Below are positions 1-15,126 of a stretch of 64,000 nt of DNA, piece after piece. The DNA is from a virus. Every line of letters begins with the position of its first letter. The first letter of the stretch is position 1. Under the pieces are notes generated by a model. That model did no database searches. It worked only from the letters and a program-made list of their open reading frames with translations, and was not told where the DNA came from. The stretch covers positions 1-64,000 of the IMG/VR virus record IMGVR_UViG_3300032309_001318. One strand, written 5' to 3'. The translations under genes were made by a program, and so were the position numbers.

Positions 1-102
1 CCAAACATTAGATTTCTCTGCTGAGATAATTTCCCCAGTTAAAGAATTAGAGCGATAAGTTTTGCCGATTAGCAAATCTTGTATTGTGTATAAGTTAGCC
101 AT
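1..102 (-). CDS. Small phage protein, N-terminal part (cut by window edge)
   Basis: A leftward reading frame starts with ATG at 102 and runs 34 codons off the left edge without a stop. It begins MANLYTIQDLLIGKTYRSNS. The upstream sequence on the coding strand carries the purine-rich element TAACGAAAGGAA, which recurs before two other leftward genes here and acts as a plausible ribosome binding region. I do not recognise the family; a short YTIQDLLIGKTYRS-type opening is seen in small actinophage proteins, but that is memory rather than a search. Function unknown. Confidence 0.55.
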   Translation of the reverse strand, partial: MANLYTIQDLLIGKTYRSNSLTGEIISAEKSNVW

Positions 103-2405: not shown

Positions 2406-2987
2406 ATGACACAGATTAATAACATAATTTATGCAAGGGCTGAAAATTTAGTTATTACCACATCAGCCTTTAGCAAGCAGGAGATTGCTGATATTGATAA
2501 AGTTAAAGAAATGGTTCTGGGGTCTATAAAAACCAGACATCTAGAATTTAATTTTACTACTGATAAAGATACCTATTCCCAGGACATTCCAAACCATTTT
2601 GATGTTTTTGTCTGCACTAAAAGCTTTTATATGTATTTCCCTACCCTTTCCCTTCGATCAGAGATAAAACTAAACATAGGAGACTTTGTATTTTTCCCAT
2701 CCCAGCTTAAACACTCAATTGAGGTTGATAGCGACCATTATATATACTTTGAAGTTTACTATTGGCCAAAAGTTAAAAATGAAGAGGCAGATGGTCAACC
2801 CTACCAAATTATTGCTACACTAACTGATAAATATGAAATACAGGTTTTTGCAAATTCAGAAAAAGAGGCATATAACAAAGCGTACAATACCCCATTATCT
2901 GATTGGAAGCATTTGACTCCTGGTAAAGTGACAACGCCTAGAAAAATAATTAGATGGGCTAGTTGGGGAGATTTTGAGATTAAATAA
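2406..2987 (+). CDS. Hypothetical protein, paralog of the 1780 product by C-terminal domain (193 aa)
   Basis: The ATG follows directly on the membrane peptide's stop. The C-terminal 60 residues (YQIIATLTDKYEIQVFANSE onward) match the C-terminus of the protein at 1780 in pattern, including the W near the end and a GDFEIK close. The N-terminal two thirds contain alternating hydrophobic residues (FDVFVCTKSFYMYFPTLSLR) suggesting a beta-sandwich. No catalytic motif seen. It ends four bases before a tRNA gene. Confidence 0.7.
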   Translation: MTQINNIIYARAENLVITTSAFSKQEIADIDKVKEMVLGSIKTRHLEFNFTTDKDTYSQDIPNHFDVFVCTKSFYMYFPTLSLRSEIKLNIGDFVFFPSQLKHSIEVDSDHYIYFEVYYWPKVKNEEADGQPYQIIATLTDKYEIQVFANSEKEAYNKAYNTPLSDWKHLTPGKVTTPRKIIRWASWGDFEIK

Positions 2988-2991
2988 GTGT

Positions 2992-3063
2992 GGCTTCATC
3001 GTCTATCGGTTAGGACATTGCCCTTTCACGGCAAAAGGACGGGTTCGATTCCCGTTGGAGCTA
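2992..3063 (+). tRNA. tRNA-Glu (anticodon UUC)
   Basis: The 72-base cloverleaf is clear. The acceptor GGCTTCA pairs with TGGAGCT, with A as discriminator. The D arm holds GTC..GGTTA..GAC. The anticodon stem TTGCC/GGCAA encloses the loop CTTTCAC with anticodon TTC. The T arm is ACGGG, TTCGATT, CCCGT. No CCA is encoded. Phages often carry a few tRNAs to match their own codon use; an AT-rich genome favours GAA, which this tRNA reads. Confidence 0.95.
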
Positions 3064-3067
3064 CTAG

Positions 3068-3097
3068 TTGACAGAAAATTTTTCTTAGTGTTATAAT
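3068..3097 (+). promoter_or_regulatory. Strong sigma70-type promoter
   Basis: TTGACA (3068-3073) and TATAAT (3092-3097) are separated by 18 bases, with TG at -15/-14 position (TGTTATAAT), so both hexamers are consensus. It lies directly after the tRNA. The expected start of transcription is near 3104, giving an untranslated leader of about 190 bases before the next gene. Confidence 0.85.
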
Positions 3098-3103
3098 TCT
3101 CAG

Positions 3104-3295
3104 GCACAACAGTTTTCGGAGATCGCATCAAGGGTTTAAACTTGTGTAGCTACCATACCAAGGAAGCTGGCCTTAATAGGTTCAACCGATGAATCCGCAC
3201 CAAAAGTCGTAGGGTTTCGGGGATATGTATATAATTTCTATATGCATGCCTGTAGGGTTTTTTTAGCAAACCCCCAAGGTTAAAGGAAAAAGCAT
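3104..3295 (+). ncRNA. Long structured 5' leader RNA, class not recognised
   Basis: Between the consensus promoter and the gene at 3296 lie about 190 non-coding bases. Visible structures are ACCAAGG/CCTT..GGT (3157-3181), GGTT-C-AACC (3179-3187), and near the end GGGTTT/AAACCC (3255-3273) just before the AAAGGA ribosome binding site. The string GTAGGGTTT occurs twice (3209-3217, 3252-3260), so the last hairpin could have an alternative partner. This looks like a riboswitch or attenuator leader or a small RNA. I compared it from memory with c-di-AMP, c-di-GMP, cobalamin and glutamine motifs and found no convincing match. Confidence 0.5.
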
Positions 3296-3505
3296 ATGGG
3301 AAGAAGATTAAATTGGGAAAATTTAAAATCTAAAGATAAAGTTAATCATACAGAAGAAATTAGATATGATTGGCGTGAATTAAAAGCATTTAATGACACA
3401 ACATGTAATGCATGTCAAAGAAGAATTAAAAAGGATCAAAAAATGCTATGGAATTTTAATACTAAAACCAAAATGCACTTACCAGAAGAATGTAAACTTT
3501 GGTAA
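3296..3505 (+). CDS. Small zinc-binding-like protein (69 aa)
   Basis: ATG 3296 follows AAAGGAAAAAGCAT. The product is basic at the N-terminus and carries C-x2-C (CNAC, about residues 38-41) and later H-x4-C (HLPEEC), a spacing that can form a single zinc knuckle. It is the first gene behind a strong promoter and a long structured leader, so its expression is probably tightly set. The family is not recognised; DNA-binding or adaptor roles are possible. Confidence 0.7.
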   Translation: MGRRLNWENLKSKDKVNHTEEIRYDWRELKAFNDTTCNACQRRIKKDQKMLWNFNTKTKMHLPEECKLW

Positions 3506-3527
3506 ATATATAAGATATAATTAGGCT

Positions 3528-3809
3528 ATGAAGTCTGAAAAGACTAGCATAGCTAAACAAAAAGCTTATCTAGCCAAATATATTCAGGACCTAAAATCTA
3601 ATACTCCATGTATGGATTGTAAAGAAAGTTTTCCCTATTACGTAATGGATTTTGATCATGTGCGGGGACGGAAGCAAGCAAACGTATCAGAACTCATTGT
3701 GACCCTATCTAAAAAAAGAATAGATCTAGAAATAGCTAAATGTGAGATAGTATGTTCTAATTGTCATAGGGTCAGAACTCACCAGAGAAAAATTGATAAG
3801 TCTATATAA
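3528..3809 (+). CDS. HNH endonuclease (93 aa)
   Basis: The protein has the classic small free-standing HNH layout: CMDCKE (first C-x2-C), then MDFDHVRG carrying the HNH histidine, and then CSNCHRVRTHQRK with the second C-x2-C pair. The two cysteine pairs bind structural zinc and the DFDH/CHR residues form the metal-dependent nuclease centre. Such genes in phages are commonly homing endonucleases or packaging-associated nicking enzymes. It is not near a terminase here, and a structured RNA lies upstream, so homing is the more likely role. Length is normal for the group. Confidence 0.88.
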   Translation: MKSEKTSIAKQKAYLAKYIQDLKSNTPCMDCKESFPYYVMDFDHVRGRKQANVSELIVTLSKKRIDLEIAKCEIVCSNCHRVRTHQRKIDKSI

Positions 3810-4342
3810 TATCTTAGTCAACTAGAATAATAGGATATATTCCAGAAATTGATTTAAAGCCATTTTAGGGCCTTATGCATGTATGGGTATGGGTATATAG
3901 CTAAAACCTTCTTAGAAGCCCTATAGAGCAATTTAGAGGCATATCTCTTACATTGGCTATATGGGTAAAAATTATATGTTCTTCTCTACCGCCGCCGAGC
4001 ACTTCAATTTTCGCACTATATTTTTTGCAATTGCACTTATTTAAGTCGAAATAGTTTTCTTAATCTATATTTGAATATTTTATATTTTAAATACATTTTA
4101 TATTCAGGGTCTCCTGGCTGAAAATGTTCGCCAGCAAAATGATACCAAGCGCTTTCAGAAGAAGGACTATTGGTAAATTTAGAAAAGTATCTTGGGCTCA
4201 TGAATTAATTATACACCTATTTAAACAGAAAACCCAATCAGAGGCGGATCCGATTGGGTTCTGGCATCTAATGATGCAGTTGTATGAGGAGCATAAATGC
4301 TCAACTTATACTACACCATTATAAAATAACTTATTTTCAAAG
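3810..4342. other. Long intergenic region between convergent genes
   Basis: These 533 bases contain no gene I can support. They include GTCAACTAGAAT (3817-3828, as before the gene at 1780), a TATGGGTA-type short repeat near 3890, and a strong hairpin at 4231-4260 that fits a leftward terminator. A 66-codon rightward frame at 4124-4324 lacks a ribosome binding site and runs through that hairpin, so I do not call it. The AT content is very high around 4020-4110. Confidence 0.5.
4231..4260 (-). terminator. Rho-independent terminator for the leftward P450 operon
   Basis: AACCCAATC (4231-4239) and GATTGGGTT (4252-4260) form a perfect 9-bp stem with a 12-base loop. On the minus strand the stem is followed by TTCTGTTT, a usable T-rich tail. 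It is about 80 bases past the P450 stop codon, a reasonable place for the end of that operon. The large loop makes it less than ideal. Confidence 0.55.
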
Positions 4343-5773
4343 TCAATGATTTTTTATTTTAGCCCTTAATGGTTTTGCAACACGATAAGTCACCCTATCT
4401 ATACCTCTGGGGAATTTTCCATAAGTTTTTATTTTAAATGAGTTAGACATTGCCAAAAGAATTATTTTCATTTCAATCATTGCAAATTGGTCCCCAATGC
4501 ATTTTCTATTACCTTCACTAAACGGGAAATATGCACCTAAAGGCAAGTTTTTTTCAAAATCCCCATCCCACCTAGAAGGTATAAACTTTTCAGGGTTTGG
4601 GTATATCTCTGGTATTCTATGAGTAACATATGGGTTTACAATTACAAACGAACCTTTTGGAATAAAGTTTCCATCTACCTCAACATCCTCTTTTGCCATT
4701 CTAGGCAAATTCCAAATAGGAGGGCAAAGCCTTAATGTTTCTTTTAAAATACTAGAACAAACGGGGGCGCTAATAATTTTTTGTAGCACCTCTTCTTCGG
4801 ATAGACCAGAGTTAAAAATACTCTTAGATTCTTCAATTAATTTATTATATTCTTTTGGATGCTTGTTTAGATAAGCCAAAGCCCATACCAGAGTGTTTGA
4901 TGTAGATTCAAATCCAGCAAGGATTACAGTAAGCATTTCATCTAAAATTTGATGCTTAGACATTTTATTACCATCTTCATCTGTGCTGTTTATATATATA
5001 GATAGCAGGTCGTCCCCATCTAAATTGCTTTTGATTTTATCTTCATACATTTTTTCTACAAATTCATACATAAATACAGTTGAGTTTACAAAGTTTTTAA
5101 AGTAAGGGATATTCATATTTTCAAACCTTGTTAAGGATGGATTCTGTGTTCGATCCATAGCATTTACCGACACAGTTAGCTCGTCTTTTATTAATTCAGA
5201 GTTATGCTGAACATCAACTCCAAAGACGCACTTACTAACAATATCTAAAGCCAAAGAGTTTATCTCAGAACGAATTTCAATTTCTTTTTTGTTATTTTTT
5301 AATTCATCAATTTTACTTTTAGTTATGTTAAACATTATATTAGACATGCTTAATAATTTTTTATGATCAAAGCTAGACATTGTCATTCTTCTAAAAACAA
5401 AATGATCTGGATTCTCACTAACCAGCAATCCATTGCCAAGAAGTCTACGTGCCCTGCCCCACAAAGGACCTTTAATAAAAGATTTTTGCTTAGCAGCTAA
5501 AATTTCCCAAGCCCCTTGTGGAGAAAAAATATAAATTACTAAATATCTTCCCCTGTAGGTAGAATAAGATTTTCCATAACGCAACATATCCCTTACGTAT
5601 ACTTTTGCTGTATTTAAAAAAAATCCATAATATCTATTTAATGGGAAATATAGTTTTGGAATTTTATTTTCTAAATTTTTTGCCTTAACATCTCTTTTTG
5701 TAATAGGAGTATATCTAGGGTCGACCCATCTAGCGCTTAATCTAAAAAATGGGTATAAACTTTTTTTTAACAT
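4343..5773 (-). CDS. Cytochrome P450 monooxygenase (476 aa)
   Basis: All P450 landmarks are visible: the I-helix AGFEST (286-291), the K-helix E345-x2-R348 (KETLR), the PNPEKF segment of the PERF region (about 392-397), and the heme loop FSEGNRKCIG (418-427) with C425 as heme ligand. A C-helix arginine pair (HFVFRR, 124-129) is present in place of the usual WxxxR. The length is full. In the I-helix, the usual acid-Thr pair reads E289-S290-T291. P450s use two electrons and O2 to hydroxylate or otherwise oxidise lipids, terpenes or peptides. No ferredoxin or reductase partner is encoded nearby, so host electron carriers would be needed. It overlaps the sulfotransferase gene by 7 bases and is the last gene of a leftward operon. 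Its AT-rich codon use matches neighbours. Substrate unknown; the overall look is closer to the class E (CYP4/CYP102-like) P450s than to soluble camphor-type enzymes. Confidence 0.95.
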   Translation of the reverse strand: MLKKSLYPFFRLSARWVDPRYTPITKRDVKAKNLENKIPKLYFPLNRYYGFFLNTAKVYVRDMLRYGKSYSTYRGRYLVIYIFSPQGAWEILAAKQKSFIKGPLWGRARRLLGNGLLVSENPDHFVFRRMTMSSFDHKKLLSMSNIMFNITKSKIDELKNNKKEIEIRSEINSLALDIVSKCVFGVDVQHNSELIKDELTVSVNAMDRTQNPSLTRFENMNIPYFKNFVNSTVFMYEFVEKMYEDKIKSNLDGDDLLSIYINSTDEDGNKMSKHQILDEMLTVILAGFESTSNTLVWALAYLNKHPKEYNKLIEESKSIFNSGLSEEEVLQKIISAPVCSSILKETLRLCPPIWNLPRMAKEDVEVDGNFIPKGSFVIVNPYVTHRIPEIYPNPEKFIPSRWDGDFEKNLPLGAYFPFSEGNRKCIGDQFAMIEMKIILLAMSNSFKIKTYGKFPRGIDRVTYRVAKPLRAKIKNH

Positions 5774-6753
5774 TCCCAGACTCCTTTATTCTTCATTAAA
5801 AAATCATACATTTCAAAATCATAATTATTCAATTCAACAATTTGATCAATTTGACCTTTTGTTAATGTGCTTTTAATTTTTTGTAATTTAAGATTAGAAG
5901 TATTTTTTTTAATATTTCTAATGTGTCCAAAATATTTATTTTTTTGTAAAATTACTGAAAGGTTATTTAAAAACAATTCTCTGTATTCTACAGTACCAAT
6001 TATATCAAATTTATTTAAACTGTCTCTCCACAAACTTCCATCTTGACCATGAGCAATAAAATTAGAATTAGAAGACATGGCGGCCATCAATTGAAATCTG
6101 TCTATTGATCTATTTAAATATTTGTTGCTCCAGTAGGACGCTTTGTCCGTATTCAATGTTGAGGTTATAGACCTAGTTTGAAAATTAGTTATAAGATCTC
6201 TATTTATTGGATCTGACAAGAAGTTATCAAAATTTTTATTTGTTACATTATCCGTTTGTCTGTGCAACATAGAATCAAATACTTTACTTATAAACATAAA
6301 ATAACTAATTGCTCTATCTATAGGGTTTCTTAATATTGTTATGCCATGTATATTTTTATTATTTTTTTTAAATAGATCAAAGGGATACATTGCAAGGTGC
6401 CCAGAAATTAATTTAGAATTTAGCATATCAAATTCATTTAAATATCCAATATTATTTATAAATGACTGTTCTTCCTTAAAAACATTTTTTAATTCTTCTT
6501 GCAGAGAAATTCCAGAATTTTTAGCTATATGCAAAAAATAAAAAGATTCTTTATGCGAGAAATTATCTTTATTTATTTTTTTAATTACAGATCCATTTTT
6601 TAGCATCATGCCATGCTCTAGGTCTTTAAACTGGAGATTGCCAATTATATTTTCGTCAACAAATCCAGTAGTATACGCTTCATTATCTTTAACGGATAAA
6701 ATTTCAAAAATATGTTGAGGACCGTACTCTATGTTGTTTACAAAATTTGCCAA
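5767..6753 (-). CDS. PAPS-dependent sulfotransferase family protein (328 aa)
   Basis: The protein shows both cofactor loops of the sulfotransferase fold: FYFLHIAKNSGISL (71-84), matching the FLHIPKTGGTS 5'-phosphosulfate loop, and ITILRNPIDRAISYF (138-152) with R142 and S150, matching the RdPxxRxxSxY 3'-phosphate loop. SGHLAMYPF (117-125) supplies a histidine where many Sulfotransfer_2 (heparan-type) enzymes have theirs. In the first loop the usual Lys-Thr-Gly reads Lys79-Asn-Ser, a variation. The start is TTG 6753, after GAAGAG. These enzymes move sulfate from PAPS to a hydroxyl on a glycan, lipid or tyrosine. Being overlapped with a P450 suggests the P450 makes or exposes the hydroxyl. The N-terminal 65 residues look like a separate accessory part. 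Confidence 0.85.
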   Translation of the reverse strand: MANFVNNIEYGPQHIFEILSVKDNEAYTTGFVDENIIGNLQFKDLEHGMMLKNGSVIKKINKDNFSHKESFYFLHIAKNSGISLQEELKNVFKEEQSFINNIGYLNEFDMLNSKLISGHLAMYPFDLFKKNNKNIHGITILRNPIDRAISYFMFISKVFDSMLHRQTDNVTNKNFDNFLSDPINRDLITNFQTRSITSTLNTDKASYWSNKYLNRSIDRFQLMAAMSSNSNFIAHGQDGSLWRDSLNKFDIIGTVEYRELFLNNLSVILQKNKYFGHIRNIKKNTSNLKLQKIKSTLTKGQIDQIVELNNYDFEMYDFLMKNKGVWEC

Positions 6754-13790: not shown

Positions 13791-15126
13791 AATTCAATTA
13801 AGAAGAGACATAGAGTCTGACTGGGTTAGAGATAATCCAATATTGCTTGATGGAGAAATTGCTATATCCTCAGATTTAAATAAATTTAAAATTGGAAACG
13901 GATCTAGGTGGGGCAGCACTTCATACTACAGCTCTCTTACCACTCAAGATTTAGAAAACACCTTGTCTTCATATGTGGAAGTTGGAGATGTTGGAAATGC
14001 AGGAGGCCCAGCAAAATTAGATATTGACGGAAACCTACTAATTCCAAAAGACAAAATTATTATAGAAGGCTCTACTGCAAACGATTATGAATTAACACTA
14101 CAATCACCAGACGTAGCCTCAGACATAACAGTAAATCTTCCCAGCGCATCAGGAACAATAGCTTTGTTATCACAAGTTCCTACTAACTATAATCAATTGG
14201 ATGGTCTACCAACTTTATTTGATGGATCTTATAATAATTTAACAAATAAACCAACTTTATTCGATGGTTCTTATAATGCCTTAACTGGAAAACCAACATT
14301 ATTTAATGGATCGTATAATGCTTTAACCGACAAGCCTTTTCTATTTAGTGGGTCATATGTAGATTTAACTGAAAAGCCTTCTTTGTTTAGCGGAGCATAT
14401 GATGATCTTTCTGGCAAACCAACCATTCCAAATTTAACTGGATATGCAACTGAAACATACGTTGGAACTGCAATTTCAAACCTAATAGATGCAGCACCAG
14501 GTGCTTTAAATACTTTAAATGAAATAGCCGCAGCAATTAATGACGACGCATCGTACGCAGCAACAATAACCACAGAATTAACAGCAAAAGCTCCATTAGC
14601 CTCACCAACATTTACTGGAACGGTTTCGGGTATTACTAAAGATATGGTAGGCTTAGGAAATGTTGATAATACAACAGACGCCCTTAAACCAATATCAACA
14701 GACACATTAAACGCTCTTAATCTTAAAGCTCCATTAGCCTCACCAACATTTACAGGCACCGTATCGGGGATTACAAAAACAATGGTGGGCCTAGGAAATG
14801 TAGACAACACTTCAGATATAGAAAAGTTTTTAATTGTAACAAATTCTCAATCTTCTTCATACACACTACAAGGCTCAGATGCAAACAAAATGATAGAGAT
14901 GACAGAAGTTAGCACTTTGACAATACCAAACGACTCTACCTATAATTTCCCTATTGGAACATATATTGAAGTATTACAAACTACATCAAATCAAGTTACT
15001 ATTGCTGGAGACGGATTTACTCCAAATGCAACACCAGGTTTAAAATTAAGATCTCAATGGTCAAGCGCAAGTTTAATTAAAAGAGCAGCAAATTCTTGGG
15101 TAGTTTTAGGAGACCTAAAGGCGTGA
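13780..15126 (+). CDS. Tail fibre protein with six-fold NLTxKPTLF-type repeats (448 aa)
   Basis: The start is ATG 13780 (MVVRIQLRRD), after GGAGGAAATTCAA. The N-terminus RRDIESDWVRDNPILLDGE..KFKIGNGSRWGSTSY is the widespread phage-fibre attachment domain. Residues about 130-225 contain six copies of a 13-residue unit of the form DGSYNALTGKPTLF. Then come two copies of KAPLASPTFTGTVSGITK followed by GLGNVDNT, 40 residues apart. The C-terminus (ATPGLKLRSQW..WVVLGDLKA) closely matches the end of the 18566 fibre. It overlaps the next gene as GTGA, the same order as in the second module, so the pair was duplicated. Confidence 0.85.
   Translation: MVVRIQLRRDIESDWVRDNPILLDGEIAISSDLNKFKIGNGSRWGSTSYYSSLTTQDLENTLSSYVEVGDVGNAGGPAKLDIDGNLLIPKDKIIIEGSTANDYELTLQSPDVASDITVNLPSASGTIALLSQVPTNYNQLDGLPTLFDGSYNNLTNKPTLFDGSYNALTGKPTLFNGSYNALTDKPFLFSGSYVDLTEKPSLFSGAYDDLSGKPTIPNLTGYATETYVGTAISNLIDAAPGALNTLNEIAAAINDDASYAATITTELTAKAPLASPTFTGTVSGITKDMVGLGNVDNTTDALKPISTDTLNALNLKAPLASPTFTGTVSGITKTMVGLGNVDNTSDIEKFLIVTNSQSSSYTLQGSDANKMIEMTEVSTLTIPNDSTYNFPIGTYIEVLQTTSNQVTIAGDGFTPNATPGLKLRSQWSSASLIKRAANSWVVLGDLKA

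Follow-up and report, generated by a model that had tools for sequence, protein, structure and literature searches.

The stretch of DNA analysed here, a 64-kb window that lies in an 84.5-kb virus record, carries a tRNA-Glu(TTC) gene at positions 2992–3064 (recognized by ARAGORN and by Rfam RF00005; this and the following features are on the forward strand unless stated otherwise), which is the immediate upstream neighbour of a sigma-70 consensus promoter and a structured RNA. The promoter, TTGACA-18-TATAAT at 3068–3097, matches all 12 consensus letters in its −35 (3068–3073) and −10 (3092–3097) hexamers, has an 18 nt spacer and shows a TG preceding the −10. About 190 non-coding nucleotides separate it from the ATG at 3296 of an ORF (3296–3505) for a 69-residue CxxC..H..C, putatively zinc-binding protein, followed by the ORF of a 93-residue HNH endonuclease (3528–3809; PHROG 3106/2255, E 1e-22). 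The leader holds a two-module structured RNA at 3099–3291, and a Shine–Dalgarno-like AAGGAA (3283–3288) can be read directly 3′ of its second module. This arrangement bears out a preliminary description of the locus, which had noted a promoter just after a tRNA and a long non-coding leader ahead of a small zinc protein and an HNH gene. The same description had called the promoter the best in the window; its consensus is indeed perfect, but a second perfect match (TTGACA-16..19-TATAAT) is located at position 14917, two perfect TTGACA/TATAAT matches within the window comparing with 0.15 expected from mononucleotide shuffles. No terminator-like site was detected within 2950–4350. On the reverse strand, at 4343–6753, the phage genome carries a cytochrome P450 gene (Pfam E 1e-67) together with a sulfotransferase-like gene.

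Judged by the portal protein, the closest isolated relatives are Streptomyces phages of the Stanwilliamsviridae (about 56% identity), and the gene order (tRNA, HNH, transglycosylase, glycosyltransferase, ribonucleotide reductase, LamG protein, portal, protease) matches that of phage Coruscant. Portal identity and Coruscant-like gene order together point to an actinobacterial host, and the viruses that carry the RNA are probably viruses of actinobacteria; we infer a freshwater origin for them. Two stretches of phage Coruscant contained no member of the RNA family, and 50,697 phage records yielded no match to the RNA or to the zinc protein.

The segment 3099–3291 is a member of a new family of structured RNAs of uncultured phages. 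Homologous RNAs were first met in loci encoding relatives of the window HNH and were then collected by a search with DNA patterns, which led to more than 100 IMG/VR loci with ∼70 distinct sequences of one subtype (type 2) and 10 of the subtype to which the window RNA belongs (type 1). A covariance model, R1, was built from a seed of 24 type-2 sequences with the window left out; it matched the window RNA over the full length of the model (positions 1–217 of 217) with 73.6 bits (E 2.9e-13) and recovered 96 members in total. R1 was also run, as a negative control, on 80 genome contigs with a common 16-base motif; the only good score was that of L238 (30.5 bits). This contig carries a real distant type-1 member, with helix P1 (see below) changed in a compensatory manner on both sides and with a homologous small-protein gene downstream, while the other loose motif matches in genome contigs were dismissed as chance.

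Rfam 15 gave no plausible match over the RNA, either for the window at gathering score or for positions 3040–3320 at E ≤ 10; no match over the RNA was obtained with 11 relatives at E ≤ 1, and at gathering score L005, L009, L010, L020 and L238 yielded tRNAs only. Likewise, no published description of the RNA was found in the literature searched, a library with few subscription papers. The suggestion of a new structured phage RNA of unknown class, for which the preliminary description had proposed an Rfam scan and a covariance analysis with related phages as checks, is thus strongly supported, as the RNA is conserved in relatives, displays compensatory changes and matches no Rfam family. Little is known of the structured RNAs that abundant uncultured phages carry; the present family is frequent in IMG/VR contigs and its fold well supported. 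In one locus (L177:4640–4990), the type-2 RNA and its promoter are present as a partial tandem duplication.

Helices P1, P3, P4 and P5 are all supported by covariation. In the window, P1 (3104–3147) pairs GCACAA (3104–3109) and GTTT (3112–3115) with AAACTTGTGT (3138–3147), P3 (3186–3220) pairs CCGATGAATCC (3186–3196) with GGGTTTCGG (3212–3220), and P4 is an AU-rich hairpin at 3223–3250. P5, formed in most type-2 members between a strand designated X and module 2, covaries as exemplified by GCAUAGG:CCUAUGC in L327 and AUUGC:GCAAU in L193. The clearest test of the predicted fold is P1, in which types 1 and 2 pair the same columns through different pairs, with double changes UA/CG, UA/AU, GC/CG, GC/AU and CG/GU and with 99.9% of the cells paired. 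In alignment A3, which comprises 80 distinct sequences, 93.8% of the cells pair as compared with at most 58% when the pairing is slid, and both sides have changed in 35 of the 45 pairs; A3 is somewhat favourable because it was fitted to the covariance model, but the MAFFT alignment A2 agrees with it (94.1% of cells paired; both-side changes in 18 pairs, and in no more than eight when slid). A2 leaves out L075, which had contributed a wrong segment to alignment A1.

Folded as a single sequence, the window RNA was not better than its shuffles (z −0.55 and −0.62), whereas several type-2 members were (z −2 to −4); as single-sequence folding is uninformative here, the structure in the window is evident only by comparison with relatives. 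The preliminary description had proposed that a repeated GTAGGGTTT could form mutually exclusive pairings with AAACCC next to the ribosome-binding site. Two copies of this repeat do exist (3209–3217 and 3252–3260), but the first forms the 3′ strand of P3 and in relatives covaries with AATCC, not with AAACCC (AAUCC:GGGUU, AAUCC:GGAUU, AAUCA:UGAUU and AAUCG:CGGUU), which contradicts the proposed switch for this copy. What is conserved as a repeat is instead AGGGTTT (3131–3137 and 3254–3260). A G-quadruplex formed from the G-runs was rejected as a general feature, four runs being present in type 2 and three in the window type.

Every type-1 RNA with enough downstream sequence, that of L095 included, is placed 3–35 nt before a gene for a ∼70-residue CxxC..H..C protein, which is the conserved partner gene of this type. 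In the subtype of the window the RNA is thus positioned as a cis leader, whereas most family members have no ORF just downstream. With a profile of the zinc protein run on 33,994 reading frames, every match fell just 3′ of the RNA in an RNA-bearing locus, including six type-2 loci with the gene roughly 45–75 nt from the RNA; near most type-2 members the protein is absent. Conversely, among loci retrieved by the protein alone the RNA was found just upstream in 14 of the 15 with upstream sequence, and the linkage persists in the distant contig L238. The one exception, L341, exhibits at 2680–3000 a 260 nt leader with a TTGACA/TATCAT promoter and TAGGGTTT near the start codon of the zinc-protein homologue; R1 did not match this leader, which is possibly a further RNA type. 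The tight linkage of type 1 to a small, probably zinc-binding protein provides an RNA–protein pair that is directly testable. The protein belongs to no Pfam family, and neither it nor its neighbours gave a PADLOC match. Its predicted fold is of modest confidence (pLDDT 72), and the fold matches, led by C1 domains and the nick-binding zinc fingers of PARP-1, were all non-significant (best E 0.075); likeness to the PARP-1 DNA-binding zinc fingers would be weak support for a role as partner of the RNA.

The same does not apply to the HNH gene, to which the preliminary description had thought the RNA might be linked. Most of the 261 HNH relatives in IMG/VR lack the RNA, which was present in only 16 of 80 HNH-homologue loci; in some others this position is occupied by another RNA. 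The HNH gene is accordingly a facultative neighbour and was rejected as the main linked gene, the link that holds being that to the small zinc protein. A role as the RNA of an RNA-guided HNH protein (OMEGA/IscB/IsrB) was rejected as well, since the 93-residue HNH matches ordinary phage HNH families and most HNH loci are devoid of the RNA.

The close relatives of the window (L002–L010, L012, L020 and L045) carry, in place of the RNA and zinc gene and behind the same kind of promoter, a second, hitherto undescribed kind of RNA of ∼130 nt (GGTTTGTGGGGGCTTACACT...CCAGATATC; type 3), located for instance at L005:3045–3200 and L020:4730–4900 and found also in L347, L378 and other loci. A pattern scan yielded 25 distinct type-3 sequences. 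R1 does not detect this RNA, so that the homology of type 3 to the family is a matter of layout and a shared CYARR motif only. Each of 228 stretches, which overlap in origin and are mostly shorter than 15 kb, contained exactly one of the three types; the flanking genes are largely common to all three, and promoter-like hexamers were present at the same place in 221 of the 228 copies when a loose pattern was used. Like most type-2 members, type-3 RNAs have no adjacent dedicated ORF.

Each RNA contains two modules with the same letters. In the window, the recognition letters of module 1 (3131–3163) are AGGGTTT (3131–3137), TAGC (3147–3150) and CCAAGG (3158–3163), and module 2 (3254–3279) repeats them at 3254–3260, 3264–3267 and 3274–3279; GGGTTT of module 2 can in addition pair with AAACCC at 3268–3273. 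Type-1 RNAs thus read AGGGUUU...UAGC...CCAAGG twice and type-2 RNAs GGGKUU...UGC...GGAAGU twice, the type-2 pattern occurring exactly twice in 114 of the 128 loci that carry it, with none expected from shuffles. Two loci gave three pattern matches; otherwise no module copies beyond two per RNA were found in the loci examined. Where the letters vary in type 2, the modules agree on GGGG or GGGU, on UGC, UUC or UGU, and on GGAAGU, GGAAAU or GGAAAA, and the two similar segments of type 3 agree on CCAGAU, CUAAGU, CUAGAU or CCAGGU.

On a type-2 tree built with the module columns left out, the module-1 changes inferred at these three sites numbered 5, 6 and 3, and all 14 shared their branch with a module-2 change, even though at the UGC site the letters differ between modules in one of three changes. 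Type 3 behaved in the same way (5/5), its inner lengths also shifting together (11/10, 10/9 and 9/8, with one exception). These lockstep tests are crude, being based on parsimony on a short RNA and on label shuffles. Letters outside the tested sites differ in places, as in L075 (GGGGUC/GGGGUU), and the last motif is not quite identical in the two modules of type-1 L031, L183 and L238, where one letter differs. When every pair of columns was scanned for co-changes, the identity pairs between modules 1 and 2 ranked on a level with the best base pair of P3 and were matched by no third column. Ordinary covariation tests seek complementary letters and miss such 'identity covariation', in which two segments far apart in the RNA have identical letters and alter them jointly, branch by branch. 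As no third position co-changes equally, the modules probably share a partner outside the RNA by which both are read; identity covariation thus points to an external partner and supplies concrete, testable letters.

Our preferred reading, which we put forward tentatively and at less than even odds, is that of a two-site RNA whose modules are candidate binding sites of a single outside partner, in the window subtype most likely the small CxxC..H..C protein whose gene follows immediately. Since module 2 borders on the ribosome-binding site, protein bound there would compete with the ribosome and limit translation. The zinc protein would in this manner set its own level, and the two-site RNA itself might serve as RNA partner or sponge of the protein, while the lone RNA of most type-2 phages would act in trans. 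Against this reading, the zinc protein is absent near most type-2 members, and the lockstep could reflect recognition by an RNA or a ligand instead; moreover, module 2 is paired with the internal strand X (P5) in many type-2 members, so that competition for X accounts for part of the coupling there. More tentatively still, the family may represent a class of phage RNAs built on a pair of matching docking sites obliged to co-evolve with a single outside partner, the three types being interchangeable cassettes at one genomic site and the CxxC..H..C protein a dedicated RNA-binding partner in some lineages; if so, the internal lockstep would preserve, in readable form, how the specificity of the partner has changed.

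Among the alternatives, a trans-acting small RNA or sponge, with the modules as duplicate seeds or as decoys for a host RNA or RNA-binding protein and the zinc gene as a passenger, is possible though somewhat doubtful. It would account for the strong promoter of its own, the tRNA genes nearby in many loci, the lack of an adjacent dedicated ORF in most type-2 members and in type 3, and a lockstep without an internal partner, but the consistent linkage of type 1 to the zinc gene speaks against it, and the only complement of the window module 2 within the 64-kb window is module 2 itself. We consider a tandem-aptamer riboswitch, with one small ligand bound by both modules and with the ribosome-binding site of the zinc gene under the control of module 2, unlikely: in most type-2 members no gene follows that could be controlled, no metabolic role is known for the sole linked gene family, and no alternative pairing of the kind previously proposed was supported, even if the cis position of type 1, the two matched modules and a lockstep interpretable as a change in specificity would suit it. 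Less likely again is an intramolecular switch in which modules 1 and 2 compete for strand X to give two alternative folds. P5 does covary, and X can pair with module 1 too. However, the lockstep persists in type 3 and in a clade without a matching X (L057, L084, L101 and L153), and, as noted above, no third column co-changes. A DNA-level element, such as a direct-repeat protein site or a recombination site, would fit the direct repeats and the replacement of types 1, 2 and 3 by one another at one locus, but is very improbable in view of compensatory changes over most of the 45 base pairs, which are a signature of RNA, and of the promoter placed precisely upstream.

With respect to known systems, tandem-aptamer riboswitches of the glycine type likewise have two similar modules in one transcript near the ribosome-binding site, as in type 1, whereas the present RNA has no known ligand and most of its members are not placed before a gene. 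Type III toxin–antitoxin RNAs (ToxI-like) consist of a repeated motif, upstream of a small gene, whose repeats evolve together, a trait shared by the present RNA; here, however, the modules are separated by helices instead of forming strict tandem repeats, and no toxin nuclease gene of that kind is present. This assignment was rejected, the small protein being without Pfam or PADLOC match and the next gene that of an HNH endonuclease. GOLLD RNAs occur in phages near tRNAs, and we know of no description of two-module lockstep for them. The GOLLD RNA (giant, ornate, lake- and Lactobacillales-derived) is structured and non-coding (PMC12286853). It resembles the present RNA in these respects, in its occurrence in lake metagenomes and in that its function is not known, but is far larger, and the present RNA has no Rfam match. 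The manA RNA (RF01745) is likewise structured, phage-borne and about 190 nt long (PMC2864571) and in these respects similar to ours, although RF01745 had no match in the window RNA at E ≤ 10. A manA-like RNA was found in L093 (399–580, reverse strand; 43.8 bits, which is below the gathering score, E 7e-10), ∼170 nt upstream of a type-2 RNA. It is distinct from the RNA described here and carries a promoter-like site of its own as well as an intrinsic terminator, which suggests that manA can be a free-standing RNA. Finally, the palindromes CTAGTTGACTAG and CTAGTCAACTAG recur in intergenic regions, for example after the RNA in L080 and L058, and are possibly a phage operator overlapping −35 elements.
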